Assembly (NCBI RefSeq): GCF_021654775.1
Contig: NZ_AP025343.1
Location: 4,617,501-4,681,500, forward strand
Direction of reading: 5' to 3'
Source of the DNA: Paenibacillus azoreducens
GTDB lineage: Bacteria > Bacillota > Bacilli > Paenibacillales > Paenibacillaceae
Length of the DNA: 64,000 nucleotides
Each line of letters begins with the position of its first letter. Within the stretch, counting starts at the first letter, position 1. The position numbers and the translations under genes were made by a program. This document shows, in pieces, positions 10,114 through 30,119 of the stretch. The notes beneath the pieces are model-generated. The model searched no databases. It was not told where the DNA came from and was given only the letters and a program-made list of their open reading frames with translations.

Positions 10114-10122
10114 ATCCGCCAC

Positions 10123-11973: not shown

Positions 11974-12012
11974 AACGTCCACCTTTCCATTCATTCATGC
12001 ACGATGGAGAAA

Positions 12013-13697: not shown

Positions 13698-16145
13698 CTA
13701 TTCCTCATCGGCGTTTGATGCCGTGAAGCCCGCTTGTTGTTTGGCTTGTTTAAGCCGCGCTTCCAGCCGCTCCCTCACGGGGCTTTTCGGAAGCTTTTTC
13801 AATTGATCCTTAGCCTTTTTCCAGTCTTCTTTTAGATGCGAAATTTCGAAGCGCTTAACTCCCTCTACCCCCAAAACCAACGCATGCTCGGGTGAACCGG
13901 GCACGATATCGCTAGCTCCCCAGTTCCGGTAAAGGGTGCCGTCTTTACGCATCATCTCGCCGTCCGGCCGGAGCATGAAGTCCCTTGATGTCGGAGCCGC
14001 ATGGCCTGCAGCTGTAAAATGGAGCGTCAAAAGCTCCGGAGCGCCTGTCATTGGACTGCGTTTGGCCAGCAAATCGGCTTCCAGCGCATGGGCCGCATCC
14101 GTATGAAACCGTATGCTCACCGTCCCGGCACCGTTATCCTGCACTTGAACGTCCATGTACGGCTTCAGGTTGTCAGGCAGCGTATACCGGTCAAACCTGG
14201 CTTTTTCCGGCACGTGTGCAATCGAAATTTCCCCATCCGTAAAGCCGTCGGCAAGAGGTACTTTGGCTTTTACCTGCATGTCGGTCGGTTGCGCGACGTT
14301 CGTTTCCAGCGTTACGGTAAATCTCGGTTCATACCTATCTTTCGCATATTCATACAAACGGTCGTACACGGAACGGCGGATCGAGGTCATGGCATCCGGA
14401 GCCCGGTCATCAAGCGGCGTATAAGCATAAGCCCCTTCGACAATCGGCATCGCCGCCAAGTAGTACGTATTAGGCGCATCGGTCATATAACCTTCGAACA
14501 CGCCATGGTTTAAATAAGGAGCAAGCGTGCGGTAATCGTCATACTCCACTTCGACGGAAGCCCCTGTCTTGCGGGCCAGCTCCGCCACATTCGGGAAGAT
14601 CGCCTTTTTGGACACGCCGAAGGCAAACCCCGGCTGAATCGACGCCGCATCAAAACCCAGATCGCGCCACTGGTAAGCGGATCCCGGACCGATATACGGT
14701 ATCCACGTGAACGTGCGCCCTCTGCCGTGAAGCAGCTTTGCCGTCTCCTGAATAAGTTCAGCCTCGCCCGTCGTTTCACCGATCCGTTCATGATACCAAT
14801 AGAAGCCGTCCAGCTTCAGATTGGAAAACTCCTTTTCCTGGAAAAGCCGCCCGACTTTATCGATATACCATTTGACGGCGGCTGTTTTGTTGCGGAACGC
14901 GAGTTCATTCATCTGCTTGAGGCCTTCATATGACCCGGGGTCGTCCACCTTTCCCGCAAAATCCGCCGCCCGCAGGCTAAACGGTTCGCCGTTTCCGCTT
15001 ACATCGCCGAAGTCGGAGCTTTCTTCGATTTGCGGAATAGCCACGGTAACGCGTACCGTCTGTTTGGTTTTCAATAATCGGTTGATGCTGCCGGCAGCCT
15101 CGTCAATGGCGGACAACTGCGCACCTGGCGCGAATATAAAATCGAGATACGCATTCAAGTCATCCATCGTGACGAATCTCGCATTCCCGCTCGCATCCGA
15201 ACCGGAAGGAGTCACCATGGAGGTAACAGGCAGGGCAAGCAGATCGGTAAAAAACCAGTCCCGAATGTTGCCGTAAATATCCTTGTAAGCCAGAAAGGCT
15301 TCCGCTTTTTCCTTCGTCCAGTCGGTGAAATACTCGCTGCCGGTTTTCATCGGGCCGGAATACCAAAGAAATTGATCCTTGATTCCTGCCGCTTCGGCGC
15401 TTCCCGGCATCGGATAGTGACCGGGTTCCCATTCGCTGTCGAATTCGGGAAGCGGAGTCGTTTCTCCGGAAACGCCTGGCTGCCCCCAAACCTCAATTTC
15501 ATCCATCCACCCGAAAAAGTTGATCGCAAATTCCAGCTTGATGTAACGCGCTTGAATATTGAGGTGCGAACCGTCGGCAAGGCGGTCCAGGACGTAAGTC
15601 TTCCGGTGCATATCCGATGCCGTTAACGTGCGGGCAAAATACAGCGGCTCGTCCGGAGCGGCCTTACCCAGATAACGGTAGTCCGTACCGTCCTGCGAAG
15701 CATAGAACCGGACGGCGACCGGAGGAGCGATCCCGACATCATTTCGTTGGCCGAATCCGGTTGCGATGCGCTTCACAGTGGACATTTCCTCCAGGTCGAC
15801 GACAACTTCTCTTTTCAGCTTGCGGTAAAAAACGAACCAGTCTTTCGTGTTCTCCCAGTTGGCAATATCTCCATAACGGCCGTCGGTCAGCTTTCCCGCT
15901 TCATCCAAGGAACTTTCCTTTCCGTATTTGCCTATGCCTTGGATCGTATCGAAAATAGCATTCGGCTCGGACACGGTTACCGGTTTGTTTAATGCCAAAT
16001 TTACGTCTTGGGGTTGTTTCGCAAGGGATGCGGTCTCCTCTGCATTTGCTGCGGACGGGATGAAAAGCTGCAGCATTAAACATGCGATCGTAAGATAAAT
16101 CCCGGGGAAAACTGCCCATTTTTTCTTTAAACGAATAGCAATCAA
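13698..16145 (-). CDS. Secreted DUF4855 protein (putative glycoside hydrolase), paralogue 1
   Basis: An 815-residue secreted protein. A signal peptide is clear (hydrophobic LTIACLMLQLFIP then SAANAEE). Residues about 50-225 form a discoidin/F5-8C-like domain (LTDGRYGD, FGQRNDVG, ARYIKLEF...DEIEVWG). Residues about 255-600 form the DUF4855 domain, with YWYHE (Glu453), WIPYIGPG, a QPGFAFG strand and VEVEYDD (Glu534). A basic helical C-terminus follows. The Glu453-Glu534 pair recurs with the same spacing in the two larger paralogues and is the best candidate for a catalytic pair. No SLH domain, so it is probably released. The gene is first in the transporter operon, 32 bases ahead of the binding-protein gene, and has a LacI/CcpA-like palindrome 29 bases before its start. 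Confidence 0.8.
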   Translation of the reverse strand: MIAIRLKKKWAVFPGIYLTIACLMLQLFIPSAANAEETASLAKQPQDVNLALNKPVTVSEPNAIFDTIQGIGKYGKESSLDEAGKLTDGRYGDIANWENTKDWFVFYRKLKREVVVDLEEMSTVKRIATGFGQRNDVGIAPPVAVRFYASQDGTDYRYLGKAAPDEPLYFARTLTASDMHRKTYVLDRLADGSHLNIQARYIKLEFAINFFGWMDEIEVWGQPGVSGETTPLPEFDSEWEPGHYPMPGSAEAAGIKDQFLWYSGPMKTGSEYFTDWTKEKAEAFLAYKDIYGNIRDWFFTDLLALPVTSMVTPSGSDASGNARFVTMDDLNAYLDFIFAPGAQLSAIDEAAGSINRLLKTKQTVRVTVAIPQIEESSDFGDVSGNGEPFSLRAADFAGKVDDPGSYEGLKQMNELAFRNKTAAVKWYIDKVGRLFQEKEFSNLKLDGFYWYHERIGETTGEAELIQETAKLLHGRGRTFTWIPYIGPGSAYQWRDLGFDAASIQPGFAFGVSKKAIFPNVAELARKTGASVEVEYDDYRTLAPYLNHGVFEGYMTDAPNTYYLAAMPIVEGAYAYTPLDDRAPDAMTSIRRSVYDRLYEYAKDRYEPRFTVTLETNVAQPTDMQVKAKVPLADGFTDGEISIAHVPEKARFDRYTLPDNLKPYMDVQVQDNGAGTVSIRFHTDAAHALEADLLAKRSPMTGAPELLTLHFTAAGHAAPTSRDFMLRPDGEMMRKDGTLYRNWGASDIVPGSPEHALVLGVEGVKRFEISHLKEDWKKAKDQLKKLPKSPVRERLEARLKQAKQQAGFTASNADEE

Positions 16146-16173
16146 CTCCTTTTCATCATTTTCCGCATCCTTT

Positions 16174-16187
16174 AGAAAACGTTTTCA
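16174..16187 (-). promoter_or_regulatory. LacI/CcpA-type operator (cre-like)
   Basis: The minus strand reads TGAAAACGTTTTCT, with a perfect 12-bp palindrome GAAAACGTTTTC. It matches the catabolite-responsive element consensus TGWAANCGNTNWCA at 13 of 14 positions. It lies between the candidate promoter and the ribosome binding site of the DUF4855 gene, where a bound repressor would block transcription. Confidence 0.75.
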
Positions 16188-16314
16188 AAAGGCATTCTGA
16201 CATCCGCTCCCATGATCCCTTAGGTTACTTCTGGTTCATTCATCCCGGAGAGGTGGATAAAAGAATGCAACCAGGCCGAGTTTTCGCCTTTGGAGTATTT
16301 ATTTATTTGATATC

Positions 16315-16343
16315 ATCGTATCGGGATAAATCCTCCAGTTCAA
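16315..16343 (-). promoter_or_regulatory. Candidate promoter for the DUF4855-transporter operon
   Basis: On the minus strand, TTGAAC (16338-16343) and TACGAT (16315-16320) are separated by 17 bases. The cre-like palindrome lies about 130 bases downstream. The -10 match is only moderate, so this is a suggestion, and the transcript would have a leader of about 160 bases. Confidence 0.4.
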
Positions 16344-16425
16344 TGAGAAAAATAGGACCATAAATACGCTTACATTCGGGATGCCTGATTTGCAGAGTCT
16401 TTCGTTATCACCGCCATTGAAATGA

Positions 16426-16464
16426 AAAAATCCGTCCCCAAAAGCTTTTGGAGAAACGGATTTT
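16426..16464 (-). terminator. Rho-independent terminator (MFS operon)
   Basis: AAAATCCGT and ACGGATTTT form the outer stem around an inner CCAAAAGCTTTTGG palindrome. The minus strand ends in a run of Ts, so it terminates transcripts from the ArsR/MFS genes; near symmetry could let it work in both directions. It is about 230 bases beyond the MFS stop codon; the interval holds no recognisable intact gene. Confidence 0.75.
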
Positions 16465-16697
16465 CATCAACTGTATTGTGATATTTTCTCATCCGTAACC
16501 GGATAAGATTGCTCCTATGTTTTCTCTTCGTCCATAGATTGCAGCAGATATCCCGATTCATTGCAGTCCGGAGTCAACTTGCTCTTTTCGGACGATCCGC
16601 CATCCCCCTAATATCGCAGGTAGGTATAAGGCCAGCGGAAGCGCCCCGAAGGCAAGAACGGGTACAAGCGAATGATAAGGGAGCTTTCCCCTGATAT

Positions 16698-17936
16698 TTA
16701 CTCTTTTGCCGACACGCTGCCGACTTGCCGCAATGCTGCAGCCCTTCCGAAAATAAAAATTCCCGCTCCCGAAATGGTGCAGATCAGAACTCCAACGGAC
16801 ATAAAAAGCGCAGGCATTCCGAAAGAAGATGCCAAGTACGTTCCGTACATCACACCAACCGGCGTCATCGCTTTTGTTAACAGCGAGCGGACAGATAGAA
16901 CCTGCCCCAAAACGCTTTCCGGCACAATCCTGTAATACAGCGTACTGCTGTACACATTCCAAAATGGCATTGCAACCCCCGCTGCCGCTTCAATCACCAA
17001 TGCTGTATGTATGCTCGTGGTCATGCCCAACATGATATAGGTCAGTCCGCCGGCAAAAAGCGCGGCGCTCATGACCGCATACAAATATGTTCCAGGCTCA
17101 CGCAGCCACCCTGCAATGATACTGCCGCACACATATCCGAACGGAAAAGCCGCTGAAAATAAACCGGATGCGAGCGGACCGCCATGAAGCGTTTCTGTTA
17201 CGTAGGGGATATACATAGCCTGTGTGGCAAACACGCCAAAACTCGTCACCGCAACAAGGAGCGTAAGCCCGCATAAAATACGATTCGATTGATAGACTTG
17301 AATTCCCTGCACGAAGCTGCCTTTCCATGTGCGCACGGTTCCCGCTGATTGGGGCCTTTCGTTTATGAATGAGGCGGGAAACCATACACACCAAAACAAA
17401 ATCGCCATAACAGGCAATAAAAATTCAGCAGAAAGCATCCCCGTCAGCAAGCCTGCGGTTGGCAGCGCCAGCACTCTAACGAGTTGCACCGAACCAGATA
17501 GGACAGCGTTAACACGGACCAGTTTGTCCGATTCGGACAGTTTGGGAATAAGGGCACCTGCAGCCGCATCATAAACATGGAGGGAGCTAACGAATGAGCC
17601 AATCCATATAATGTATGCTTCCTTATGCCCCGCGATCCACATCAGCCATACAAATAAAAAGGCCGCTCCCCGAATCGTTTCGGACAACTTCATTACGGTA
17701 ACCCGCTTCCACCGGTCGATATATGGACCCGCGATCCACTGGACAAGCCATTGGCCGACCAGGCTGAGCAGCCATATTCCACCCATAGCCGCTTTTGAAC
17801 CGGTCAGCGTATACAACATCCACGATAGAATAAACGTGCCCGATGTTCCCGCAAGGTTCGAACGCATTTGATCGACACACAGCCAGCCCAAGTTTCTATT
17901 CCATGATTTGGCCGCTGTAGCCATTTCCCCGGTCAT
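16698..17936 (-). CDS. Major facilitator superfamily exporter
   Basis: About 412 residues with 12 hydrophobic segments. The MFS loop 2-3 motif is recognisable as GPYIDRWKRVTVMKLSE, and the overall pattern is that of the EmrB/MdfA-like or enterobactin-exporter (MFS_3) group used for drug or metabolite efflux. ATG 17936 follows the ArsR-type regulator stop with a single base between, and GGGAG eight bases upstream serves as ribosome binding site; the two genes are one transcript. The arrangement suggests a regulator that senses the exported compound, or a stress signal, and controls its own pump. Confidence 0.85.
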   Translation of the reverse strand: MTGEMATAAKSWNRNLGWLCVDQMRSNLAGTSGTFILSWMLYTLTGSKAAMGGIWLLSLVGQWLVQWIAGPYIDRWKRVTVMKLSETIRGAAFLFVWLMWIAGHKEAYIIWIGSFVSSLHVYDAAAGALIPKLSESDKLVRVNAVLSGSVQLVRVLALPTAGLLTGMLSAEFLLPVMAILFWCVWFPASFINERPQSAGTVRTWKGSFVQGIQVYQSNRILCGLTLLVAVTSFGVFATQAMYIPYVTETLHGGPLASGLFSAAFPFGYVCGSIIAGWLREPGTYLYAVMSAALFAGGLTYIMLGMTTSIHTALVIEAAAGVAMPFWNVYSSTLYYRIVPESVLGQVLSVRSLLTKAMTPVGVMYGTYLASSFGMPALFMSVGVLICTISGAGIFIFGRAAALRQVGSVSAKE

Positions 17937-17937
17937 A

Positions 17938-18993
17938 TCAACGGCTCCCGTCACCCAGACCCAGAAAATCGCGCAGTTCTTGATCATGTTGATTCAGGGA
18001 GCCCGGATTCCATGAATAGCTTCCGTCCTTTACGCGCACCAATCCCGCTCCTCTAAGAATCGCAAGATGATGATGCACCGTAGTTTTCCCCATATTGAGC
18101 AAGTCGGTAAGCTCTTTTAAAGACCGGTCCTGCTCGGAAATCAATTTTAAAGCCCGCAGCCGTTTGTCATCGCCCAAAGCTTTGTATAATTGGACAAGCT
18201 GTCCCGGCGGCTCGTAAGGATCGCCATTCGACTGCATGCTCGCGTCGCTGACCGGATAATAAAAAATACGCGTATCATCCATATCAGCCTCAACCGTCCA
18301 AGGGCGGTAGATGACATGCGGGATCAGCAGCACTTTGCTTACACTTGATTCCGGTTTATATTCGATGCCTGATGCTCTTAGCACGACTTCTTCGGGTGTG
18401 CAGGTGCGCAGCCAATTCCTTTTCATGGACAAATCACGCTCCAGGATCTCTTTTTTCTCCTCCGCATCAACACCGCCAATTTCTTCTTCCCATAGCCGGA
18501 GCATATCCGTGAGGTGTCGTTTCAGTTCTTTTGCCCCAATTTCACAGACAGTTCGGATCATTTGCGGGAAGAAAAGATGTTCTTCACAGGCCTGAATCAT
18601 GCTTTGTGCAGCTTCCAAATCCCCTTGGGCTGCTCGAAGCCGATTGTTCTCTTGGCAATTCCCTAAATACGGGAGGATCAGAAAGTTGAAATCCCTGTCT
18701 TCTAAAGCCTGAATAAATGTAAAAAAATCCTCCGCAGTAGCAAAATTTTGCGCATGCAGCAATTGAAGCAGCATTTTCCATGTCTGCTGCCGCTGGCAGA
18801 AGTCCAATTCCCGCCGGAGCTCAAGCGAAGTTGATGTCCTTAGATGCTGCCAATAAGATTGCGGCTTGTCCAGGGCGGCATGCAGCTTGGGATAAGTAGC
18901 AGCGGCGATCCCCAAAGCACTTTCAAATAATAGCGAATTGTACAGCTCAACCTGATAGGAACTTCTTTTAAATGACGTATCTACAACCTTCAT
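17938..18993 (-). CDS. ArsR-type winged-helix transcriptional regulator with long N-terminal domain
   Basis: About 351 residues. The C-terminal 75 residues form an ArsR-type winged helix (ALGDDKRLRALKLI, then LKELTDLLNMGKTTVHHHLAILRGAGLV). The preceding 270 residues are an all-alpha domain without cysteine metal sites, as in the larger DUF5937-like ArsR relatives found next to MFS pumps in Paenibacillus and Bacillus. Start: three ATGs are possible; ATG 18993 is favoured by an AGGAGG eleven bases upstream, while 19002 is only two bases from it. Upstream lies an array of 23-bp-period direct repeats that may be its operator. Confidence 0.8.
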   Translation of the reverse strand: MKVVDTSFKRSSYQVELYNSLLFESALGIAAATYPKLHAALDKPQSYWQHLRTSTSLELRRELDFCQRQQTWKMLLQLLHAQNFATAEDFFTFIQALEDRDFNFLILPYLGNCQENNRLRAAQGDLEAAQSMIQACEEHLFFPQMIRTVCEIGAKELKRHLTDMLRLWEEEIGGVDAEEKKEILERDLSMKRNWLRTCTPEEVVLRASGIEYKPESSVSKVLLIPHVIYRPWTVEADMDDTRIFYYPVSDASMQSNGDPYEPPGQLVQLYKALGDDKRLRALKLISEQDRSLKELTDLLNMGKTTVHHHLAILRGAGLVRVKDGSYSWNPGSLNQHDQELRDFLGLGDGSR

Positions 18994-19150
18994 ATAACTC
19001 ATTTCCTCCTGCATCTAAATCTATCTTATTACCGACTTCAGGGATCCAGCTCATCACTCGAATCCCCTAAGATATTCCATCGTCACATGTTTATATTCTA
19101 AATTATTATAACATCGCATTCAATATATTTGAAACAAACTACTCAATAAA

Positions 19151-19236
19151 ATTAGAATATTTGATTTCATATTATTAGAATATTTAATTCTGTGTAATTA
19201 GATCATTTAATTCGAAATCATTAGTAAATCGAAAAT
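19151..19236. repeat. Direct repeats with exact 23-bp period upstream of the ArsR-type gene
   Basis: Copies of ATTAGAATATTTAATTC begin at 19151 (one substitution plus one extra base), 19174 and 19197 (two substitutions), with a weaker fourth at 19220 (ATTAGTAAATCG). The spacing is exactly 23 bp throughout. The area is very AT rich and about 160-240 bases upstream of the regulator start. The regular period suggests repeated binding of one protein on nearly the same helix face. Confidence 0.6.
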
Positions 19237-19309
19237 AGACTGCTATTTACTTTTAAAATAATCGGATTTAGCGGATTTCCTTGGGAGTCAGGATGATGTG
19301 TCGGAGTGC

Positions 19310-19333
19310 TAACGAAACTCACAATCGTTATTG
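19310..19333 (-). repeat. Short repeat CAATAACG-6 bp-AGTTTCGTTA, copy 1
   Basis: The minus strand reads CAATAACG, a variable 6-bp core, then AGTTTCGTTA. Two copies of the same unit with different cores lie on the plus strand at 21215-21238 and 21265-21288, on the other side of the insertion sequence. No function is known to me. Confidence 0.7.
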
Positions 19334-19408
19334 CCGCAAAATAAAGCCTCTGATTTTTCTAAACATTCCTGTGTAGGCTAAGAAAATGGTCTTTGAAAAA
19401 AAAAAGGA

Positions 19409-19467
19409 GCGCCTCGTATGATAGGGGTGAGACGGGTCAAATGCCCTAAAAACCTATCAGGAGGCGC
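19409..19467 (+). promoter_or_regulatory. Long hairpin sequestering the transposase ribosome binding site
   Basis: GCGCCTC (19409-19415) pairs with GAGGCGC (19461-19467), and TGATAGG (19419-19425) pairs with CCTATCA (19453-19459), giving 14 base pairs with a small bulge. The right arm contains the AGGAGG (19459-19464) used by the transposase start at 19473. A transcript entering from outside would fold this hairpin and hide the site, a common protection against read-through expression in insertion sequences. Confidence 0.7.
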
Positions 19468-19472
19468 CTACT

Positions 19473-20750
19473 ATGAAGTTTACTCGAATTGAAGTTACAA
19501 ATCAACGGATTGAACGAATTACCACCCAGCACGCTATCGTGGGGATCGACATCGCCAAAGAGAAGCACGTCGCTCAAGTGACCAACTTCCGCGGTATCGT
19601 ACTCACGCGTCGGCATCTGACCTTTGCAAATACGCTCGAAGGCTTTGAGAGGCTGATGCGCTTTACCCAAGAAGTACAGAAGAAGCAGGGATTGACATCG
19701 GTTATCGTCGGCCTCGAGCCGACCGGACACTACTGGTTTAATCTAGCCCATTGGCTGCGGAAACAAGGAATCGAGGTCGTCCTGGTGAACCCAGTCGTGA
19801 CGCATCGCAACAAGGAGAACCGTGACAATAGCCCGTCCAAAAACGATGCCAAGGATGCCCTAACCATTGCCGATGCGGTCAGCCGCGGCTTCTATACCGA
19901 GTTTACCCCGCAAGCAGGCCAATTGGAGCAACTCAAGACGCTGATGAGTGATCGGGAATTCTGGGTGAAATATGCTATCAGTTTGGGTAATCGCATCGTC
20001 CGCTGGATCGACATGTACTTTCCGGAGTTCCAGCTTGTTTTTAAAGACTGGAAGGCCGAGCGCTCGTTGGCTTCCCTGCGGGCTTTTCCTTTACCGTGCG
20101 AGTTGCAGGACCTGAACGCCGATGAAGTCATCCAGCGCTGGCACGAACAAGGCATGAGACGCCCGGGTGGAGTTACCGGGAAAGCGAAGGCGGTCCAACT
20201 CATCCAGGCGGCCAAACGCAGCATTGGCCGTACCGAGGGATTGGAGCAGGCAAGGCGAGATCTGCAGCGCCTGCTGACGGCGTACGACCAGATTACAAGC
20301 CACCTGCAAGAGATGAAGGAAGAAGTCGAAGCGCTGCTAGGGAAGATCCCCATGGCCAAACAGTTGCAGAGCATCCCCGGGATGGGCCCGACCACGATCG
20401 CAGCCTTGCTGGGATTCGCCGGCGATCTTGGTCACTATGCCCATGGACGGCAGCTCTTGCGCCGCGCCGGGCTCAATCTGGCTGAACGAACCTCCGGCAA
20501 GTACAAAGGTCAGATCAAGCTCTCCAAACGCGGAGACAGTGCGCTGCGCAAATATTTCTTTTTGGCTATGCTCACCTTGGTGCGTGAAAACCCGGACTTC
20601 AAACGGTGGCATGAACACAACTTGAACAAGGGCATGAAGAAGATGGCTTCGTTATTCAAATTAATCGGCAAGCTGGCCCGGATCGTCATCGGGATGGTCC
20701 AGCGTGGAGAAACGTATCGCCCTGAGATCGGTGTGAAGCAGGCCGCCTAA
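19473..20750 (+). CDS. IS110-family (IS1111 group) transposase
   Basis: A full-length 425-residue transposase/recombinase. The N-terminal RuvC-like DEDD domain shows Asp26 (VGIDIAKEKH), Glu in VGLEPTGHYW, and the pair in KNDAKDALTIADAV. A coiled-coil linker leads to the Transposase_20 domain with the helix-hairpin-helix-like LQSIPGMGPTTIAALLGF and the serine-bearing ERTSGKYKGQ segment that supplies the nucleophile in this family. No frameshift or stop is seen, so the gene looks intact. Start at ATG 19473 with AGGAGG eight bases upstream. Known family members use an RNA encoded in the non-coding end to choose targets. Confidence 0.93.
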   Translation: MKFTRIEVTNQRIERITTQHAIVGIDIAKEKHVAQVTNFRGIVLTRRHLTFANTLEGFERLMRFTQEVQKKQGLTSVIVGLEPTGHYWFNLAHWLRKQGIEVVLVNPVVTHRNKENRDNSPSKNDAKDALTIADAVSRGFYTEFTPQAGQLEQLKTLMSDREFWVKYAISLGNRIVRWIDMYFPEFQLVFKDWKAERSLASLRAFPLPCELQDLNADEVIQRWHEQGMRRPGGVTGKAKAVQLIQAAKRSIGRTEGLEQARRDLQRLLTAYDQITSHLQEMKEEVEALLGKIPMAKQLQSIPGMGPTTIAALLGFAGDLGHYAHGRQLLRRAGLNLAERTSGKYKGQIKLSKRGDSALRKYFFLAMLTLVRENPDFKRWHEHNLNKGMKKMASLFKLIGKLARIVIGMVQRGETYRPEIGVKQAA

Positions 20751-20861
20751 CCCCGAGGATTCCTATCGATCCCGTAGCACCTGTCGCCCCGTCGTATTAC
20801 GAATATTGTCTTATTCGCAGGATCTCTAATATGCACAGAGAACCGAGTGCCAGTTTCGCAA
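20751..20861 (+). ncRNA. Candidate bridge/seek RNA region of the IS1111-type element
   Basis: About 110 non-coding bases separate the transposase stop from the right sub-terminal repeat. In IS1111-group elements the guide RNA is encoded in this downstream position. The stretch holds short inverted segments, for example GCGAATAAGACAATATTCG-type complementarity near 20797-20820 (CGAATATTGTCTTATTCG on the plus strand), that could form a stem-loop. Placement rests on the element class, not on a matched model. Confidence 0.45.
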
Positions 20862-21158
20862 GGGCATAGACCCGTCACCTAAACGCTATCGGTCTCCACG
20901 CCTTGGGTAGGTATGACGAAGGAATGGAAGGACAATGATCCGTTGAGACATGGGAGGGTGAACCTCCAAGGGCCAAGTGGAGCGTGCAGTATACCAGCAC
21001 CCACGAAGTGCGTATAAGCGTAGCTTCTGTTCTTGCACGCCCGTTTGTCGAAAAAAGCGGTGTCTACTTCTTCATTCCGGCTCTCGTTCTGTTTTACAAG
21101 GCGAAGGAATTCTGCGAATAAGTGAGTATTCATGAGAAAACACCTTAAATACGAGGGA

Positions 21159-21288
21159 CGAAACTAGGTATCGCTATTTAACAAAATTTTTGGCGTTCAT
21201 ACCCATTTTCACCCCAATAACGATATGGAGTTTCGTTAAAAATAAAATGCTGCCGTTTTTGAGACAATAACGCTTCCCAGTTTCGTTA
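21159..21288 (+). repeat. Further copies of the CAATAACG/AGTTTCGTTA repeat
   Basis: Two plus-strand copies start at 21215 and 21265, 50 bp apart, with conserved flanks and different 6-bp cores (ATATGG, CTTCCC). A degenerate inverted copy lies at about 21159-21179. The interval from the insertion sequence to here (20883-21158) has no convincing gene. Confidence 0.65.
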
Positions 21289-21303
21289 GACGCTATTGCG
21301 GGT

Positions 21304-21560
21304 GGTATGCTACATTACTGGTGGGCAGTGTGCTACGTAACATTAATGACCGGTATGCTACGTTCATTGGTAGGCGGTTTGCTTCGTTCATTAGCGAGAG
21401 GATCCTAAGTTCATTACCAAGTGCGGCCCGAATTTGTGCGATGAGGCTTGAATTTCTGCGATGATGTAGCGTTCAAATTTTAAAAAACGCACTAGGATGA
21501 TTGAATATAACCTGCTGGATGATTGAATATGACCAGCCGGGTGATTGACAGATCACCGAA
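21304..21560. repeat. Degenerate tandem arrays with 24-bp, 20-bp and 22-bp periods
   Basis: Five diverged units of about GGTATGCTACGTTCATTGG start at 21304, 21328, 21352, 21376 and 21400, exactly 24 bp apart. Two AATTTGTGCGATGA-like units follow at 21431 and 21451 (20 bp), then GATGATTGAATAT units at 21496 and 21518 (22 bp) and a weaker third. No open reading frame explains them. Confidence 0.55.
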
Positions 21561-21584
21561 GGAAGCTTGAAAACTAACACATGC

Positions 21585-21614
21585 AAAAAAGGCCTCGTCC
21601 GAAAGGACAGGGCC
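21585..21614 (-). terminator. Rho-independent terminator for the 1034-residue DUF4855 gene
   Basis: On the minus strand GGCCCTGTCC, TTTC loop, GGACGAGGCC is followed by six Ts. It lies about 175 bases beyond the stop codon at 21789. The interval contains a segment (ACGCATGTTATTTGCTTCC) that is repeated behind the neighbouring paralogue at about 25378. Confidence 0.85.
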
Positions 21615-21788: not shown

Positions 21789-24700
21789 TCACTGCGGTTT
21801 GTATTCGAATGTAAATTTCACGGGCGCCGACATCCCATCCATTGAGAGATAGGCATCGTTGGTTCCCTTGAGATTACCGGTAAGCTTGATCGTGAATTGG
21901 AATCTTCCCGTTTCCGAGCTTATCGTCTGGCCTTCGTACAGGACTTTCCCTTTCGAATTGAGCACTTTCAAATTCACTTTGGACTGGCTTCCATTCATCA
22001 CCAGACCGTTGATCGTCAATTTCCCCGCATCAGTATCTGCCGCAGCCTGAACACCATCTATCGGAGTTACTATACCGCCTCCCGAAAGGAGATATACGCC
22101 AAATTCATAGAAGGAATATCCGTATTCTGTATTTCTCTGAACGCCTTGGAATTTGACGTATCTGGCTTTGACCGGATCAAAATGAACGGTTTCTTTGCCG
22201 GAATACGCCGTAATAATTCCGTCATTGTCCTTGATCACACTGGTCCAATTCTGATTGTCATCGGAAACAAGCAGTTTGTAGGTTTTAGCCCGGGCATTCT
22301 CCCAGTCGATTCTAACCGTATCGAATTCTTTGGATTCGCCAAGATCGACTTGGAACCAGGTGTCATCAACATAGCCGCTCGACCATCTGGTCGAAGAGAA
22401 TCCGTCCACAGCATTTTTCGGCGCCAATCTCTCAAGCGAGCCTTCTACGGAAGAAGCAGTTGCCGGTTTATTTTCCGCCAGATTGCCAACGAGGCTATAA
22501 ATTTCTTCATTCAACGCGGCATACGCCGTATCCGAAATGATATGGTCTGTAGACAATTGATCCAGCTTCACATTGAAGCCTTTTAAGTACTTGTCAAACT
22601 GCGCTGCAGCTGTTCCTTCATAACGTTTCATCAGTTCCAGATAATTGTTCAGCGAACGAGGGGCTTCCGCTGTTGTGAACTGATTCTGTTCGGCGAATTT
22701 GCTTACGTGAGCTTTCATGGTATCGGCGGTCGCCACCGCTTTGATGATGTAAGTCGTCGTCTTGGATTGGGCTGCGGCCACGGTGATGGCCAGTTGATGT
22801 TTACCCGGTTTTCCCGCCAGATCAATCGGAGTTCCCTCGGTGTAAGGATTGCCATCGATCAATACCGTTACCTTTGCCAATCCGCTTCCATCGTCATCTT
22901 TGATTTTCCATGTAATTTGAAGGGTTTCCGTATCCGGTATGTCCATATCGCCATTTAACGTTTGTCCGTTGACGAATATGTCCGCCTCCGGAGCCGGGCT
23001 ATTGTGGGCGACGTACGTTCCGTTCAAATATTGATACAGCCAGTCATACATTAAACGTAAACTTGGATCTTTGCTCACCCCTAAGTTGTAAACGGCATTA
23101 TTTCCTTGGTAATAAGCTCTAAAGCCATTTTGCATCAAGCCGGTTGTGGCGCCGCTGTTCAAGTAGTCGATAAAACGCTCGCGGAATACATTGTCCGTCA
23201 GCATCCGGTCATCAAACTCGACTTCGTTCCCCATCCCATATCGTTTTGCATTATTCGCGGCATCTTCCAGACGGTCAACATCCATGCCACCGAAGAAGTA
23301 GTTCGGCTGATAGGCAGCGGCATCCATGCCGACGTCTTTCCACATATACATTTTGTAAGCTAAAGAGTGAGGAATCCAGAATACCTTCAAGTTCATAGCA
23401 TGCACTTTTTCAGTCACCATTCGTGCATCGTCTGGTCCCGTTTCACCTACATCGATTTGTTCTGGCAGCCAGTACATACCTACAAGTTGAAGATTTGAAT
23501 AGTTTGCCGCCTGCCATCTTTGCTGAACCTGATCCAGCCACCACTGTACCGCTTTCCCCCTGTTTTCAAGCGCTTTATCTCTGCCGACGACGGATTCGTT
23601 AAAATTCAAGGAACCGGTACCGTCAACGTCGCCAAAATCTGTTAAGGATCCCCCCGGATTCGGAATCATTAACACAACCTTTTCTTTATAATCAGGCTGG
23701 TTCAGCTTGGTTCCGACTTCCTTGGTAGCCTCATTCAAATTCTGCATATCCCCCGTGGCAGCAAAGGTTTTATCCAAATACCATTTCCAATCTTCCAGGT
23801 TCGTTTGCCCAAGGCCGAAATCACGACCGGCAGGCGAAGCAAGCCCGAGATATAAAATGCCGTCAAAAAGCCAATCGGTAGGCTCGCCATCCTTATTAAT
23901 ATAACTAATGTTTGGAATGATCCGTTCCTTACTCCAATCCCCCAAACCATTTGCATACTGTCCGTTATACAACAAATTCAAATTCCGGATACCAGCTGTC
24001 GCTTCGCCTGGCTCCAAAAAATGAGGCTGCTCGGTAGGAACGGTTACTGCCCCGTCGGCCTTGCCATCCGTACCCATAATTTCGATTTCATCAATGTATT
24101 CCCATAGCTCTTGATGCATCGTAAAGATGACTTTAACGTAACGGGCATAAGCCAGCTTGCCATCCGTTTTCCCGCCATTGATTCCGTCCCGGCTGCCGTC
24201 CCATGTAAAGGTCTCCTGTCTAGGCGGCCCTGACCCCCAGAGCAACTGAGTGGCGTTATGGGAAAGCAATCCCCAATTCTCCTTATCATCGGAGACATAC
24301 ATCGATACCTCCAGCGGCACGAGGATCGAGTTTGTAGGATAATCTTGGAAAAAGTGGGCCGTAATCTTGGCGATCGACTTTTCCTCACCCAAATCGAACA
24401 CGACTTCGCGAGCTTTGCCACGCACATGTCCTACCCATGCCGGATCATTCATATCGAGCGCGCCATATTTTCCATCCGTAAGCTTATAACCGTCGTCCGG
24501 ATGCGATGCGTCCGGTTGTTCAGACCATTCATAAGGAAGACCTGACGCGAGATTACGGAATTCCGTCTGATCTCCTGCTGCCGATGCGGCCTGCTGATTT
24601 GCATCCGGTGTTTGTTTTGCCTGATCCGCTCCCGGCTTCCCTTCATTTTTCGATTGATCCTCTGCCTGTTGTTCTGCTGTCAGTTGTTCTGCTGTCGGCT

Positions 24701-24893
24701 CTCCGGCATCCGTCGGTTGATCCGGTAAAGCTTGCGGATTTTCCATTTCATTCCCTCCTACCTGGTCCGCATCACCCGTCTGTGTGATGGACACAGCCGA
24801 AACAGGCGACTTCGCCTGTACCGCAGAAACCGGAGCCATCAGCAAAACGGCAGCCATCAGGACCGATCCCCATTTTTTATTTGATTTCATCAA
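21789..24893 (-). CDS. Secreted DUF4855 protein with discoidin domains, paralogue 2
   Basis: A 1034-residue exported protein. Signal peptide residues 1-28 (AVLLMAPVSAVQA, then cleavage). A Gln/Pro/Asp-rich linker (about 30-110) leads to an F5/8C-like domain (about 115-275), then DUF4855 (about 300-630) with YWLPE (Glu478), WIPHSLAYKMYMW, QPNYFFGG and VEFDD (Glu559). A short Ig-like stretch and a helical region follow, then a second F5/8C domain (about 810-945: LAENKPATASS, RWSSGYVDDTWFQVDLGE) and a C-terminal beta domain. It lacks the SLH anchor carried by the adjacent 1502-residue paralogue, so it is probably released or bound through its discoidin domains. Start ATG 24893 follows AGGAGC. 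A LacI-type palindrome lies 229 bases upstream. Confidence 0.85.
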   Translation of the reverse strand: MMKSNKKWGSVLMAAVLLMAPVSAVQAKSPVSAVSITQTGDADQVGGNEMENPQALPDQPTDAGEPTAEQLTAEQQAEDQSKNEGKPGADQAKQTPDANQQAASAAGDQTEFRNLASGLPYEWSEQPDASHPDDGYKLTDGKYGALDMNDPAWVGHVRGKAREVVFDLGEEKSIAKITAHFFQDYPTNSILVPLEVSMYVSDDKENWGLLSHNATQLLWGSGPPRQETFTWDGSRDGINGGKTDGKLAYARYVKVIFTMHQELWEYIDEIEIMGTDGKADGAVTVPTEQPHFLEPGEATAGIRNLNLLYNGQYANGLGDWSKERIIPNISYINKDGEPTDWLFDGILYLGLASPAGRDFGLGQTNLEDWKWYLDKTFAATGDMQNLNEATKEVGTKLNQPDYKEKVVLMIPNPGGSLTDFGDVDGTGSLNFNESVVGRDKALENRGKAVQWWLDQVQQRWQAANYSNLQLVGMYWLPEQIDVGETGPDDARMVTEKVHAMNLKVFWIPHSLAYKMYMWKDVGMDAAAYQPNYFFGGMDVDRLEDAANNAKRYGMGNEVEFDDRMLTDNVFRERFIDYLNSGATTGLMQNGFRAYYQGNNAVYNLGVSKDPSLRLMYDWLYQYLNGTYVAHNSPAPEADIFVNGQTLNGDMDIPDTETLQITWKIKDDDGSGLAKVTVLIDGNPYTEGTPIDLAGKPGKHQLAITVAAAQSKTTTYIIKAVATADTMKAHVSKFAEQNQFTTAEAPRSLNNYLELMKRYEGTAAAQFDKYLKGFNVKLDQLSTDHIISDTAYAALNEEIYSLVGNLAENKPATASSVEGSLERLAPKNAVDGFSSTRWSSGYVDDTWFQVDLGESKEFDTVRIDWENARAKTYKLLVSDDNQNWTSVIKDNDGIITAYSGKETVHFDPVKARYVKFQGVQRNTEYGYSFYEFGVYLLSGGGIVTPIDGVQAAADTDAGKLTINGLVMNGSQSKVNLKVLNSKGKVLYEGQTISSETGRFQFTIKLTGNLKGTNDAYLSMDGMSAPVKFTFEYKPQ

Positions 24894-25121
24894 TTTCAGC
24901 TCCTTTTATTCCCGAGTATAGATAAACCAGAAACCTTTAAATTCATTGTCCTGTTCTGGAGAACTTCCGATTTCGATCCCCCTTTCGCCTCATCAAGCAT
25001 AATCCATTGGGACAGCACTTTCGAAAAAGGCACCCAAAAGCCCGAATGTGAGTGTTGTCAGATGCTGAGTAAAAACATGTTGCGTATCAGCCTTCCCAAA
25101 ATATGCTCCCGAACAAAAAAA

Positions 25122-25135
25122 GTTAGCGCTTTCAA
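25122..25135 (-). promoter_or_regulatory. LacI/CcpA-type operator (cre-like)
   Basis: The minus strand reads TGAAAGCGCTAACT, 13 of 14 matches to the cre consensus TGWAANCGNTNWCA. It lies upstream of the 1034-residue DUF4855 gene, in the position matching the sites upstream of its two paralogues. Confidence 0.65.
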
Positions 25136-25294
25136 AATAGCAGGAATATTTTCCAATTAACCATTCTAAAAAGCGGGTCACCGGCCTATATTTCGGGATA
25201 CGGCTGAAAATGCTTCCGCACGGATTCATGATAAAAGGAGATTGACGGGAAGGCAAGCAACATAATTTGTGCGCTGTACAATTTTTTTCGTACG

Positions 25295-25327
25295 AAAAAA
25301 AGGCCATATCCGAACTTGACAAGGCCT
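25295..25327 (-). terminator. Terminator-like hairpin downstream of the 1502-residue gene
   Basis: The minus strand shows AGGCC, a 17-base loop, GGCCT and a T-run. The stem is short. The GGCC...GGCCTTTTTT layout is the same as the terminator at 21585-21614 after the paralogue. Confidence 0.5.
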
Positions 25328-25508
25328 ATGAAAACCCAATATTATTCCAAGTTTATTCACTTAATACAATGTACACCGCATGTTATTTGCATTACCTGCG
25401 ACATAATTTGTCATGAACTATTTTCGTCCAAGACCGAAATCAACGAAAACAGGTCGACTGCCATCGAATATTGCGCTTGCCCGAGAAATAAATGAGTGAT
25501 CTCTAAGG

Positions 25509-25536
25509 CCCGGCTGCTCGAATACGAACAGCCGGG
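25509..25536. terminator. GC-rich hairpin near the 3' end of the SLH-DUF4855 gene
   Basis: CCCGGCTG and CAGCCGGG form a perfect 8-bp stem around a 12-base loop. The only T-rich tail (TGTATCTTTT) is on the plus strand, so its direction does not suit the minus-strand gene; it may stabilise the 3' end of that message instead. Confidence 0.45.
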
Positions 25537-25610
25537 TGTATCTTTTCACCGCTGAGAATACCCGTCAAAAGAAAGCGCCTCCACAGCTTTTTTATCCTGT
25601 TGTCTTCCGA

Positions 25611-28600
25611 TTACTTTGATAGGAAATTTAATAACCGGTCCACGAAAACTGCTGTCTCAGCCCGGGTTGCATTACCGAACGGACGAATCATTTTTTCGCT
25701 GCCATGAATCAGCCCATGCTCAACCATGCCCGCGATACTGCCTGCGGCGTATGCCGATACTTTGCCGGCATCCTTAAAACCGTTCAACGCTGAGAGAGCG
25801 CCTGCAATCTCTTTGGCTTTTGCCGCTTGTAATGCGCGGTCCGCCATGACCATCATGTCCTGTCTTGTAACCTTCGCAGTCGGATCAAAGCGCTTGTCAT
25901 CAAGTCCAGTGACGATCCCAAGCTTCTTCGCCGTCGTCACGGCTACATAAAAATAATCCTCCGGCTTCACGTCTTCAAAGGCTTCGCTTGCATCGGCCTT
26001 CAAATCAAGCGCTCTTACAAGCATGACAATATACTCTGCTCTGCTTACTTGATCGGCCGGACTAAACGTGTCGGCAGTCGTCCCCTTCACGATGCCTGAA
26101 GCAGCCAACCGTTCAACAGAAGCTTTGGCCCACGCGTAACCATCAAGATCGATAAATGTCGCTTCCGGCTGTTTGTAGAATATCGCGTAAACCCCCGTAT
26201 GGTCCGTTTGGAACCGGATGAATTGGCCCGAAGCGGAATAAGCTGCCCCCGTCACGGCTGTGGAAGCATCTTGCTCATTTTCTGCCAACACGCCAATGTT
26301 AGCTGCCGCCTCATTGTTTGCCTTTACGTAGGCAATGCTGACGGTTATTGGCGCCTTTTCATTTTTCCAGGCAATGGCCTTTCCGTCCACTAGTACCTCA
26401 AGCTTCAGCACCGGTCTGCTGCCTACGATCTCTTGATCCGCTTGACCCAGGGACTTACTGCCAACCTCGCGAATGGCGAATCGCAGCTGCTTGCCAGATT
26501 GGGCGGATGCCGCCAGCATTTGTCCGGACAGCATAACGGAAGCTTTTGGCGTGATGAGTTCAACCTGCAAATTTGGATATCCGGACATCAGCGCCGCCGG
26601 AAGATCCACGGCATAGTCCGCTGCCCCAGTGTTCTTGACTTCAATAGCGACCTTCACCTTGCCGTCCTGACCAGCCTTCGCTTGAGTCATCGCTTTTTGC
26701 ATTTCCTGCTCGTTCACAGCGGCTACGGCTGTTTTTCCGTCGGCATCAAGCTTTCCGTTCACAACGGCTTTGACTGAACCATCCCGCTGCGACTGGAACG
26801 CATTAGCAACTGGATTCGGCGTGCTACTGCCGCTAGTATTTCCGTTTCCGGTACCATTGCCGCTGCCACCGCCGCTGCCGCCGTTATCTCCACCGTTGTT
26901 TCCACCGCTGCCTGGATTCCCGCCGTTATTGCCTCCATCTCCGCCCCCGGGAGTTTTGTATTCAAAAGTAACCTTAACGGGTTCGCTCATGCCATCCAAG
27001 GACAACAATGCTTCATAGGTTCCCTCTACGCTGGTAAGCGAGAATGCAAATTGGAAGCTCCCGGCTGCCGTGCCCGTTGTCTGGCCTTCGTATTGAACCT
27101 TGCCTTTCGGATCTAGTACTTTCAAATTCACTTGAGCCAGATCGCCATTCATGACGAGACCGTCGATCGTTACTTTTTTCGCCGAAGCATCTACCGCTGC
27201 TTTAACTCCATCGATCGGAGCTGCTTCCTGGGCCCCCGAGAGGTTATATACGCCAAATTCGTAGAAGGAATATCCGTAATCCGTATTTCTTTCAATGCCT
27301 TGGAATTTGACGTATCTGGCCTTTACCGGTTCGAAATGAACGGTTTCTTTGCCGTCACGGGCCGTAATCATGCCGTCATGGTCCTTGACCGCAGAAGTCC
27401 AGTTCTGTTTATCCTCTGAAACAAGGAGCTTGTAGGTTTTGGCGCGGGCATATTCCCAATCGATACGTACCGTGTCGATCTCCTTGGCTTCGCCAAGATC
27501 CACCTGGAACCAGCTGTTATCCGCGTAATCGCTCGCCCATCTTGTCGCAGGGAAACCATCCACCGCTTTTCCCGGTTGTAAATTCGGGCTGCCGCCTTCT
27601 ACCGAAGATGCTTCCGCCTTTTTATTTTGCGCCAGGTTTCCAATAAGGTAGTAAACATCTTCTTTCAGCGAGCTGTACGCTTTCTCCTTCATTACGCCAT
27701 CTTTCTGCAAAAGATCCAGCTTCGCATTAAACCCCCTCAAATATTTATCTGTCTGGACCGCATCCGTTCCTTCGTAACGTTTCATCATTTCCAGATAATT
27801 GTTAAGAGAACGCGGCCCTTCGGCAGTCGTAAACTCTTTTTGCTCCACAAAGCGGTTGACCAATGTCTTCATGCTGTCCGCGTTGGCGGCCGCATCGATG
27901 ATGTACGATGTTTTTTGCGACTTGCCCGCCGTTACAGTGATCAAGAGTTCATGTTTTCCGGGCTTGCCGGTTAGATCAATGGTTGAACCCGCCGTGTATG
28001 GTTTGCCGTCAAACTGAGCTGTAACTTTTGTTAATCCGTCATCGTTTTTCAGTTCCCACGTAAACTGTAGTGGCTGGGTTTCATTTACCACTGCACCGCT
28101 TTGAAGCGCCTGCCCATTTATTTGCACGGCTACCTCAGGTGGAGCCTCATTGTTGATTTTGTATTCGCCTTTTACATATTGATACAACCAATCATACAAA
28201 ACGCGAGTAGAGGGATCTTTGTTGACAGCTGCGTTAAACACGGCATTATTGCCTTGGTAGTAGGCTCTGAAGCCGTTTTGCATCAATCCCGATTCGACGC
28301 CGCTGTTCAAATAATCGATATACCGCTCGCGGAATACGCCATCGGTAAGCATCCGGTCATCAAATTCAACTTCATTGGATATGTTGTATTGCTTCGCCAG
28401 ATTTGCGGCATCCTCCAGATGATCGTAATCCATCGCCTCAAAGAAATAGTTTGGCTGGAAGGCAACGGCATCAAAACCGACATCCTTCCACATAAACACT
28501 TTGTATCCCATGAAATGCGGGATCCAGAAGAACTTCAGGTTTTTCGCATGGATTGCATTGCTGGTTTCCTTAAGCAAATTGGGACCCGATTTACTTGTGC

Positions 28601-30119
28601 TGATCTGTTCATCGAGCCAATAGATGCCGACAAGCTCTAGGTTGGAATAGTCCGCTTCACTCCATCTTTTTTCAACCTCATTAAGCCACCACTGAATCGC
28701 CTTGACCCGGTTCGCAAACGCCTTCTCTTCTCCGCCGTCGGCAGCGTTAAAACTTAAATTTTCACCGTCAATGTTACCGAAGTTTCTTATCGATTCTCCG
28801 GGATTCGGTACCATCAGCACGACTTTTTCCTTCTGACCCGGCTGGCCCAGCTTTTCGGCTATCTCTTTGGTTGCTTCGTTTAAATGCTGCATGTCTCCAT
28901 CCGCTTTAAACGTTTTGTCAAGATACCAGTTCCATTCATCCAGGTTCGTTTCCCCTAAGCCATAATCATGGCCTTGAGGAGAGTTCAGCCCCAGATACAA
29001 AACGCCGTCAAACAGCCAATCTTTCGGGTTGCCGTCTTTATCGACGTAGCTGATGTTCGGGATGATCCGCTCTTTGCTCCAATCCCCCAAACCATTCGCA
29101 TATACTCCGTTATACAGCAGTCCGAGATTGCGGATGCCTGCGGTGGCTTCACCCGGCGCCAAAAATTGCGGATGCTCGGCAGGAACCGTTACCGCCCCGT
29201 CAGCCTGGCCATCGGTACCCCAAACTTCAATTTCGTCGATGTATGTCCATTGCGTAGGATGCATCGTGAAGGTTACTTTAACATAGCGGGCATACGCCAT
29301 CTTGGCATCCGAATTCCCGCTTTTGATGCCATCCTTGCTGCCATCCCATTCATAGGTTTCTTGATTGATAGGTTCATCTCCCCACAAAACTTCGGTGGCC
29401 TTGTGAGCCAGAAGCCCCCAATTTTGTTTGTCATCGGAGACGTACATCGAAACCGTTAACGGATTCAGGATCGAGTTCGCCGGATAGTCCTTCAGAAAAT
29501 GGGCTTTTACGCTGGCGATCGACTTTTCTTCACCGAGATCGAATATGACTTCACGCGTTTTTTTATGCAGATGCCCAACCCATGCCGGGTCCGTTATATC
29601 CAACCCGCCGTATTTTCCGTCCGTCAGTTTATAACCATCGTCAGGATGGGATGCTTCCGGCCCTTCCGACCATTCATAAGGAAGACCTGCGGCAAGATTG
29701 CGAAGTTCCGACTGCTTTTCCGCTGCCGGATCTACCGGTTTTTGGGCTTCCTCTTTCGGATTTCCCGCATCTTTGGCTGGATCTTTCTCACCCGTCCCCG
29801 GTTGCTCCGGATCCACTGCCGGATCATCCGTATTTACAGGCGGCTGCTCCGGTTCTGTTCCCGGATTGTTTGAATCCGAACCCGGGTTCCCTGGGGCTCT
29901 TCCTGGAGCTCCCGAATCCGAACCCGGCCGCTCTGGGCCTGCCCCCGGATCCCCGGAACCGGTATTCGGCTGCTCCGGAATTCCCCCCTGCACCGTGTCT
30001 TCTGCCTGCATGATTCGCACTGCAGAGCCTTGCTCATTCGCTTGCACCGCGGATAGTGGTGTCAGCAGCAGGACTGAGCTTAACAGGATCGATCCCCATT
30101 TTTTATGCCAATTCATCAA
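25611..30119 (-). CDS. S-layer-anchored DUF4855 protein with discoidin domains, paralogue 3
   Basis: A 1502-residue cell-surface protein. Signal peptide about 1-27 (LLTPLSAVQA). A Pro/Gly/Asp-rich linker (about 40-135) of repeated P-G-S/A-D/E units is probably a wall spacer. Then F5/8C-like domain (about 140-305), DUF4855 (about 330-660) with YWLDE (Glu504), WIPHFMGYKVFMW and VEFDD (Glu585), a helical region, a second F5/8C domain (about 840-970), a Gly/Asn-rich linker (about 1070-1110), a beta region, and three SLH domains at the C-terminus (about 1320-1500; ASGIVKGTTADTFSPADQVSRAE and two more, in part). SLH domains bind pyruvylated secondary wall polymer. It shares all but the anchor with the 1034-residue neighbour. 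A LacI-type palindrome lies 122 bases upstream. Confidence 0.88.
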   Translation of the reverse strand: MMNWHKKWGSILLSSVLLLTPLSAVQANEQGSAVRIMQAEDTVQGGIPEQPNTGSGDPGAGPERPGSDSGAPGRAPGNPGSDSNNPGTEPEQPPVNTDDPAVDPEQPGTGEKDPAKDAGNPKEEAQKPVDPAAEKQSELRNLAAGLPYEWSEGPEASHPDDGYKLTDGKYGGLDITDPAWVGHLHKKTREVIFDLGEEKSIASVKAHFLKDYPANSILNPLTVSMYVSDDKQNWGLLAHKATEVLWGDEPINQETYEWDGSKDGIKSGNSDAKMAYARYVKVTFTMHPTQWTYIDEIEVWGTDGQADGAVTVPAEHPQFLAPGEATAGIRNLGLLYNGVYANGLGDWSKERIIPNISYVDKDGNPKDWLFDGVLYLGLNSPQGHDYGLGETNLDEWNWYLDKTFKADGDMQHLNEATKEIAEKLGQPGQKEKVVLMVPNPGESIRNFGNIDGENLSFNAADGGEEKAFANRVKAIQWWLNEVEKRWSEADYSNLELVGIYWLDEQISTSKSGPNLLKETSNAIHAKNLKFFWIPHFMGYKVFMWKDVGFDAVAFQPNYFFEAMDYDHLEDAANLAKQYNISNEVEFDDRMLTDGVFRERYIDYLNSGVESGLMQNGFRAYYQGNNAVFNAAVNKDPSTRVLYDWLYQYVKGEYKINNEAPPEVAVQINGQALQSGAVVNETQPLQFTWELKNDDGLTKVTAQFDGKPYTAGSTIDLTGKPGKHELLITVTAGKSQKTSYIIDAAANADSMKTLVNRFVEQKEFTTAEGPRSLNNYLEMMKRYEGTDAVQTDKYLRGFNAKLDLLQKDGVMKEKAYSSLKEDVYYLIGNLAQNKKAEASSVEGGSPNLQPGKAVDGFPATRWASDYADNSWFQVDLGEAKEIDTVRIDWEYARAKTYKLLVSEDKQNWTSAVKDHDGMITARDGKETVHFEPVKARYVKFQGIERNTDYGYSFYEFGVYNLSGAQEAAPIDGVKAAVDASAKKVTIDGLVMNGDLAQVNLKVLDPKGKVQYEGQTTGTAAGSFQFAFSLTSVEGTYEALLSLDGMSEPVKVTFEYKTPGGGDGGNNGGNPGSGGNNGGDNGGSGGGSGNGTGNGNTSGSSTPNPVANAFQSQRDGSVKAVVNGKLDADGKTAVAAVNEQEMQKAMTQAKAGQDGKVKVAIEVKNTGAADYAVDLPAALMSGYPNLQVELITPKASVMLSGQMLAASAQSGKQLRFAIREVGSKSLGQADQEIVGSRPVLKLEVLVDGKAIAWKNEKAPITVSIAYVKANNEAAANIGVLAENEQDASTAVTGAAYSASGQFIRFQTDHTGVYAIFYKQPEATFIDLDGYAWAKASVERLAASGIVKGTTADTFSPADQVSRAEYIVMLVRALDLKADASEAFEDVKPEDYFYVAVTTAKKLGIVTGLDDKRFDPTAKVTRQDMMVMADRALQAAKAKEIAGALSALNGFKDAGKVSAYAAGSIAGMVEHGLIHGSEKMIRPFGNATRAETAVFVDRLLNFLSK

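Follow-up and report, generated by a model that had tools for sequence, protein, structure and literature searches.

We provide evidence that DUF4855 (Pfam family PF16147) is probably a catalytic domain, that of a glycoside hydrolase (GH) family whose members are mostly secreted, as judged from sequence conservation and predicted structure. The evidence centres on three DUF4855 proteins of 815, 1034 and 1502 residues, encoded in a 64,000-nucleotide stretch of the genome of the soil bacterium Paenibacillus azoreducens (NZ_AP025343.1, positions 4,617,501 to 4,681,500; here called the window) that holds all three PF16147 matches of the whole 7.3 Mb genome. We lean, at slightly better than even confidence, towards retaining glycosidases with E478 and E559 (numbering of the 1034-residue protein) as the catalytic pair. 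A candidate catalytic pair, a natural branch without one of its residues and a short substrate list make this unknown domain directly testable.

A predicted barrel with a conserved glutamate pair

The three proteins and their barrels map to the window as follows; export and signal peptides were judged by eye throughout.

13698..16145, minus strand: 815-residue secreted DUF4855 protein with signal peptide, beta-sandwich, barrel, cohesin-like sandwich and helical bundle (Pfam, N-terminus by eye, predicted model)
14418..15368, minus strand: its DUF4855 (beta/alpha)8 barrel, residues 260-576 (PF16147, expectation value (E) 3e-59; predicted model)
14787..14789, minus strand: Glu453 codon (YWYHE), just after barrel strand 4 (model strand 374-381, Glu at model 384)
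14544..14546, minus strand: Glu534 codon (VEYDD), last residue of barrel strand 7 (model strand 461-465, Glu at model 465)
21789..24893, minus strand: 1034-residue secreted DUF4855 protein with FIMAH and F5/8 type C modules (Pfam, N-terminus by eye)
23031..23984, minus strand: its DUF4855 barrel, residues 304-621 (PF16147, E 2.2e-87; predicted model)
23460..23462, minus strand: Glu478 codon, three residues past barrel strand 4 (model strand 179-186, Glu at model 189)
23217..23219, minus strand: Glu559 codon, last residue of barrel strand 7 (model strand 266-270, Glu at model 270)
25611..30119, minus strand: 1502-residue secreted DUF4855 protein, anchored by S-layer homology (SLH) domains (Pfam, N-terminus by eye)
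28179..29129, minus strand: its DUF4855 barrel, residues 331-647 (PF16147, E 2.2e-93)
28608..28610, minus strand: Glu504 codon (motif position)
28365..28367, minus strand: Glu585 codon (motif position)

All three proteins match the PF16147 profile well above its curated cut-off of 27 bits (201, 294 and 313 bits, in order of length). The barrels of the 1034- and 1502-residue proteins are 69% identical and are sisters in a tree that took in 74 of 75 rows; the 815-residue barrel, only 32-33% identical to either, belongs to a separate subfamily, in line with the low similarity described in the original prediction. The nearest named protein to the 815-residue one among 8000 scored candidates is a Paenibacillus azoreducens protein (99% across the part searched). 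The original prediction had read a Glu pair from the motifs YWxxE (Glu453, Glu478 and Glu504) and VE[FY]DD (Glu534, Glu559 and Glu585), and its positions, the difference of 81 in all three proteins and the intervening WIP, WxDxG and QPxxxF motifs are as described. However, the spacing that it called invariant is a property of these three proteins and not of the family, where it ranges from 79 to 87 and equals 81 in 142 of 194 domains.

The alignment behind these counts holds 191 database domains and the three window proteins. Its core has 168 rows (7 of 175 proteins, 172 found and 3 from the window, were left out as partial domains); a family search listed the best 120 of 148 matches, and 26 rows were added from a search with the 815-residue protein that scored 8000 candidates. 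The 194 rows are not independent: with a 62% identity threshold they fall into 45 groups, and with 40% into 8. E478 and E559 are each present in 194 of 194 domains, and among 43 acidic columns they alone are invariant. They belong to ten invariant columns among the 326 of the barrel (P411, W451, Y474, E478, W506, P508, Q529, F534, E559 and Y577). Read from the alignment, this conservation of the pair is not chance. A further 27 DUF4855 domains came from fetched loci; 18 keep both Glu, and nine short proteins are without the strand-7 Glu.

Both AlphaFold models examined, one of the 1034-residue type and one of the 815-residue type, predict a (beta/alpha)8 barrel, as had been foreseen, and place the two Glu at the C-terminal ends of strands 4 and 7. 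In 4/7 glycosidases the catalytic pair sits at these strand ends, with its carboxylates about 5 A apart. According to PMC9032380, retaining hydrolases including those of GH5, GH26 and GH113 carry a Glu/Glu pair on a (beta/alpha)8 barrel. By analogy, the strand-4 Glu would serve as acid/base and the strand-7 Glu as nucleophile, in a retaining double displacement as in GH5 or GH113.

A short branch without the strand-7 glutamate

Family-wide conservation of both Glu, which the original prediction had expected, breaks down in 13 short DUF4855 proteins (the nine above and four fetched later) of 319-399 residues that are without an evident signal peptide, although the start codons of those in L135 and L224, and hence their lack of a signal peptide, are unsure. 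The strand-7 Glu is present in 0 of 13, with Thr, Val, Ile or Asn instead (at L134:9503-10471 the position is a gap in one alignment and Val in later ones), whereas the strand-4 Glu is kept in 12 of 13, as xWx[R]E, and is Asn in one. At the position of E557, 12 of 13 have Gln and the remaining one has a gap; none of the 13 keeps Q529. The 12 short members included in the tree form one group, whose sister in L141 keeps both Glu (support 100/99).

The short proteins come from nine loci (L131, L132, L133, L134, L135, L223, L224, L225 and L226). For 12 of the 13, the loci share related genes for a glycosyltransferase, UDP-sugar dehydrogenase, aminotransferase, Gfo/Idh protein, epimerase and hexapeptide acyltransferase, in varying subsets and with families checked on examples; L226 shares only the epimerase type. 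In L131 and L134 the short DUF4855 genes alternate with glycosyltransferase genes. The strand-7 residue is thus missing together with export and a degradative context, the pattern expected of an enzyme losing its reaction. The reaction appears to have been lost in this branch and its proteins put to other use, mostly within polysaccharide-biosynthesis clusters.

Relation to known families and alternative readings

In clan GH-A, Asn immediately precedes the acid/base Glu. DUF4855 shares with this clan (GH5 and GH113, compared through 3wh9 and 4awe, which we take to be GH-A enzymes, and also 5yli) the predicted barrel and the Glu at the ends of strands 4 and 7, but position 477, before the strand-4 Glu, is variable (E, P, H, A, D and S commonest). 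Because this Asn is missing, we do not file DUF4855 as a member of the clan; it probably works like a 4/7 barrel glycosidase that lacks the Asn-Glu mark, and no sequence match to such enzymes is among the Pfam families listed below. GH18 chitinases carry DxxDxDxE on strand 4, which is absent here, the window proteins having GxYWxxE instead. GH20 enzymes have an adjacent Asp-Glu pair on strand 4, which DUF4855 does not keep, as the residue before E478 is Asp in only 18 of 194 domains. Searches with phmmer against the PDB returned nothing for the 815-residue protein, and only F5/8-type accessory regions for the 1034-residue protein and the profile of A1; NCBIfam returned nothing for either protein.

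The nearest candidate relative is DUF4434 (PF14488), for which BT_0435 (PDB 4h41, deposited as a putative alpha-L-fucosidase) is a solved structure of similar sequence, matched by a DUF4434 protein at E 3e-6. Among 18 DUF4434 sequences, the Glu of a GxYxxxE motif is present in all 18 and that of a later ExF motif in 16. We considered DUF4434 as a proven sister family and rejected this, as the profile alignment weakened from E 0.0019 to E 0.011 once two wrong open reading frames were removed (five control families gave 0.095-0.49). The alignment places the first DUF4434 Glu on E478 and the second on E557, one gap before E559, and we retain it as suggestive. The two domains lie about 5 kb apart in L145, and of 249 genomes sampled from the phylum the same five show an expansion of both. 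These five (G066, G112, G151, G185 and G215, the first four being the source of L142-L150) belong to one family, span 2.0-2.5 Mb and have at least 6-8 DUF4855 and 7-11 DUF4434 matches each.

Several observations weigh against the reading of DUF4855 as a glycoside hydrolase built on E478 and E559. The Asn-Glu signature of GH-A is absent from the 194 domains, and the 13 Pfam-type members without the strand-7 Glu contradict conservation throughout the Pfam family. When 53 members were scanned against Pfam up to E 10, no other glycosidase barrel was among the 25 of 46 families listed, which are DUF4855, accessory domains and stray matches (one of them to the GH59 C-terminal lectin domain, E 0.05), the other 21 families each occurring in one member. 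The Foldseek ranking mixes TIM barrels of different kinds, tryptophan synthase and aldolase among them, at TM scores of at most 0.55 and root-mean-square deviations of at least 7 A, so the glycosidase likeness is only general. Finally, E557 lies two residues before E559 on the same strand, is Glu in 193 of 194 domains and could be catalytic in its place.

This last point underlies the possibility of a glycosidase that is inverting, or that uses E557 or D561 as its second carboxylate, which we consider unlikely. Residues 557 and 559 face the same side of one strand, the DUF4434 alignment points to E557, D561 is kept in 183 of 194 domains, and sequence cannot distinguish retention from inversion. 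Nevertheless, E557 is replaced by N, T, Q or L in four domains that keep E559 (two in L140, one each in L142 and L139), D561 varies further among the 27 added domains, and E559, at the strand end, is the residue found in every one of the 194. The short branch has lost both E557 and E559, and thus does not discriminate between them. We lowered our confidence in retention through E478 and E559 to its present level because neither this branch nor the DUF4434 alignment favours E559 over E557; of the original proposal of a retaining TIM-barrel glycoside hydrolase, the hydrolase part is supported by the barrel and the Glu pair, and the retaining part stands at that lower strength.

It is very unlikely that DUF4855 is throughout a non-catalytic, lectin-like carbohydrate-binding barrel. 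Its structural neighbours do include chitinase-like SPG-40 (1zbv) and concanavalin B (6caf), and one branch has lost the second Glu, but none of the 194 domains lacks either carboxylate or the Tyr, Trp and Gln close to them in sequence, and within the conserved import operon described below DUF4855 alone among the enzyme-like proteins has an evident signal peptide. We give marginally less credence still to a barrel that cleaves glycans by a different reaction, such as that of a polysaccharide lyase or a transglycosylase. Many kinds of reaction take place on barrel folds and that operon encodes a heparinase II/III-like partner, yet two Glu so placed on a (beta/alpha)8 barrel are the active-site layout of retaining hydrolases.

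Import operon and accessory modules

The gene for the 815-residue protein is followed on the same strand by five genes.

12064..13665, minus strand: solute-binding protein, lipoprotein-like N-terminus, no Pfam match (N-terminus; ortholog conserved beside the DUF4855 gene)
11032..11994, minus strand: ATP-binding cassette (ABC) importer permease (PF00528)
10123..11019, minus strand: ABC importer permease (PF00528)
6970..10122, minus strand: 1050-residue heparinase II/III-like protein, no evident signal peptide (PF07940, E 1.2e-13)
5571..6977, minus strand: 468-residue protein, family not matched, last operon gene (conserved in L158 and L159)

Successive gaps are 32, 69, 12 and 0 bases, and the heparinase-like and 468-residue genes overlap by 8 bases. 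All six genes have relatives in the same order in L158 and L159 (the last one cut off in L159), and L157 has relatives of the first five, where the stretch ends. In L160 the first four are present, together with a lyase-like gene spread over several frames; the 468-residue gene, whose product has no Pfam or PDB match, was not found there. Two relatives of 42-43% identity, in L161 and L162, adjoin a DUF2961 gene and importer genes. Export signals were evident only in the DUF4855 and binding proteins, so that, if the operon feeds on an outside polymer, DUF4855 must make the first cut. The 1050-residue protein bears only a remote resemblance to alginate lyases (E 0.014 for its best PDB match). 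Uronic acid may be part of the target of the 815-residue type, which could differ from the target of the NanE-linked subfamilies discussed below; heparin or alginate may be candidates.

The accessory regions of the three proteins are as follows.

15474..15836, minus strand: N-terminal beta-sandwich of the 815-residue protein, residues ~104-224, probably F5/8 type C-like (strands in predicted model)
13908..14327, minus strand: cohesin-like beta-sandwich of the 815-residue protein, residues ~607-746 (predicted structure alone)
13734..13892, minus strand: C-terminal helical bundle of the 815-residue protein, residues ~752-804 (helices in predicted model)
22488..22724, minus strand: FIMAH domain of the 1034-residue protein, residues 724-802 (PF22888)
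22110..22463, minus strand: C-terminal F5/8 type C (CBM32-like) domain of the 1034-residue protein, residues 811-928 (PF00754)
25614..26150, minus strand: SLH region of the 1502-residue protein, from residue ~1324 (PF00395, three stretches)

No F5/8 type C match up to E 0.01 was found by Pfam in the 815-residue protein; P0191, a member of the same subfamily, has one at E 0.064, and ends in a FIMAH domain at its C-terminus. The F5/8 type C domain of the 1034-residue protein resembles the glucanase/chitosanase domain 4zy9 (E 2.2e-21). The modular glycosidases of Clostridium perfringens combine CBM32, FIVAR and cohesin/dockerin modules; DUF4855 differs from them in its catalytic domain, and the cohesin-like module of the window has no sequence match to cohesin. 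Cohesin and dockerin domains occur in other DUF4855 proteins, which suggests enzyme complexes. The F5/8-type, FIMAH, cohesin-like and SLH modules would tether the enzyme to glycan, partner or cell wall.

Neighbourhoods and a possible substrate

We sampled 79 named loci, kept from 201 confirmed stretches, in which gene families were defined as BLAST clusters with Pfam run on examples only. An ABC permease gene is in a same-strand run with DUF4855 in 25 of the 79 and within 10 kb in 44. Also within 10 kb are genes for GH20 (8 loci), Gfo/Idh (8), NanE (7), SLH-GH18 proteins (6), ROK kinase (5) and RpiR (5); a gene of this SLH plus GH18 type also lies in the window.

34828..36432, minus strand: SLH plus GH18 gene

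The seven NanE loci compare with 0.46 expected from a density of 36 matches in 122.5 Mb from 18 of the genomes that hold these loci, a density that counts fragments and comes from genomes partly picked for having NanE. Three of these loci (L079, L080 and L085) are alike, and merging them leaves five (Poisson P 1.2e-4). NanE is the gene directly upstream of DUF4855 in L094, and its link in L097 is loose (about 6 kb, outside the same run).

Sialic acid was considered as the target because of the nearby NanE. No nanA above the model cut-off was found in the seven NanE-linked genomes searched, and we regard sialic acid as less likely. Two loci count against dismissing it: the L042 contig, where a nanA-like gene of lower score (108 bits) and the linked NanE are about 14 kb apart, and L097, with its loose link. 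G661 (L042), G662 (L064) and G667 (L097) each have more than one NanE match, and in each the top-scoring nanA-like gene neighbours a copy that is not the one linked to DUF4855, which hints at two separate uses of NanE.

For Bacteroides thetaiotaomicron, a table in PMC10434189 has the DUF4855 protein BT0442 shortly after the alpha-N-acetylglucosaminidase BT0438. Together, the GH20, NanE and BT0438 neighbours suggest amino-sugar polymers, and the presence of NanE where no sialate lyase accompanies it suggests N-acetylmannosamine (ManNAc). An amino-sugar substrate for the NanE- and GH20-linked subfamilies is a serious possibility to which we give just under even weight. The importers would take up the products, which GH20, the heparinase II/III-like protein, and NanE with a ROK kinase would then process.

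A far more specific version, which we offer as quite improbable, is that DUF4855 is the missing depolymerase of ManNAc-containing bacterial surface polymers. It would be a secreted hydrolase of beta-N-acetylmannosaminidase type that, with GH20, dismantles secondary cell wall polymer, the ligand of SLH domains like those of the 1502-residue protein. The ROK kinase would phosphorylate the freed ManNAc and NanE would epimerise it, and the sister branch without the nucleophile would be reused to build polysaccharide from dehydrogenated, aminated UDP-sugar. An excerpt of PMC11464976 gives the secondary cell wall polymer repeat of Paenibacillus alvei as 4,6-pyruvyl-beta-ManNAc and beta-N-acetylglucosamine, and a polymer of this type may be the substrate. 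If the substrate is indeed an N-acetylmannosamine polymer, DUF4855 would supply an enzyme that acts on one class of bacterial surface glycan.

Distribution and other observations

DUF4855 occurs under names from Firmicutes, Actinobacteria, Bacteroidetes and Armatimonadota among the matches listed, the genera being placed in those phyla on our assumption, and some genomes have at least eight copies. The table in PMC10434189 is the single mention of DUF4855 in a search of 5.39 million open papers. We found no function for DUF4855 there, and subscription papers and the CAZy site lay outside the search, so that a family number could exist. The terms 'PF16147' and 'mannosaminidase' were in no open paper searched, and 'DUF4434' was absent from the 21 open papers found.

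DUF5696 and DUF2961, both little-described families, have genes near DUF4855 genes (L094:3877-6654, L161:13819-14940 and L162:5659-6780). A promoter and terminator scan of 13400-31500 gave counts that match shuffles (17 versus 21.1 and 20 versus 20.0). In the window, an IS110-type transposase gene (19473-20750) lies between the gene for the 1034-residue protein and an ArsR-type regulator gene. As a regulator-like gene is directly 3' of the DUF4855 gene in L035, L040 and L046, this IS110 element may have inserted into a conserved neighbourhood.
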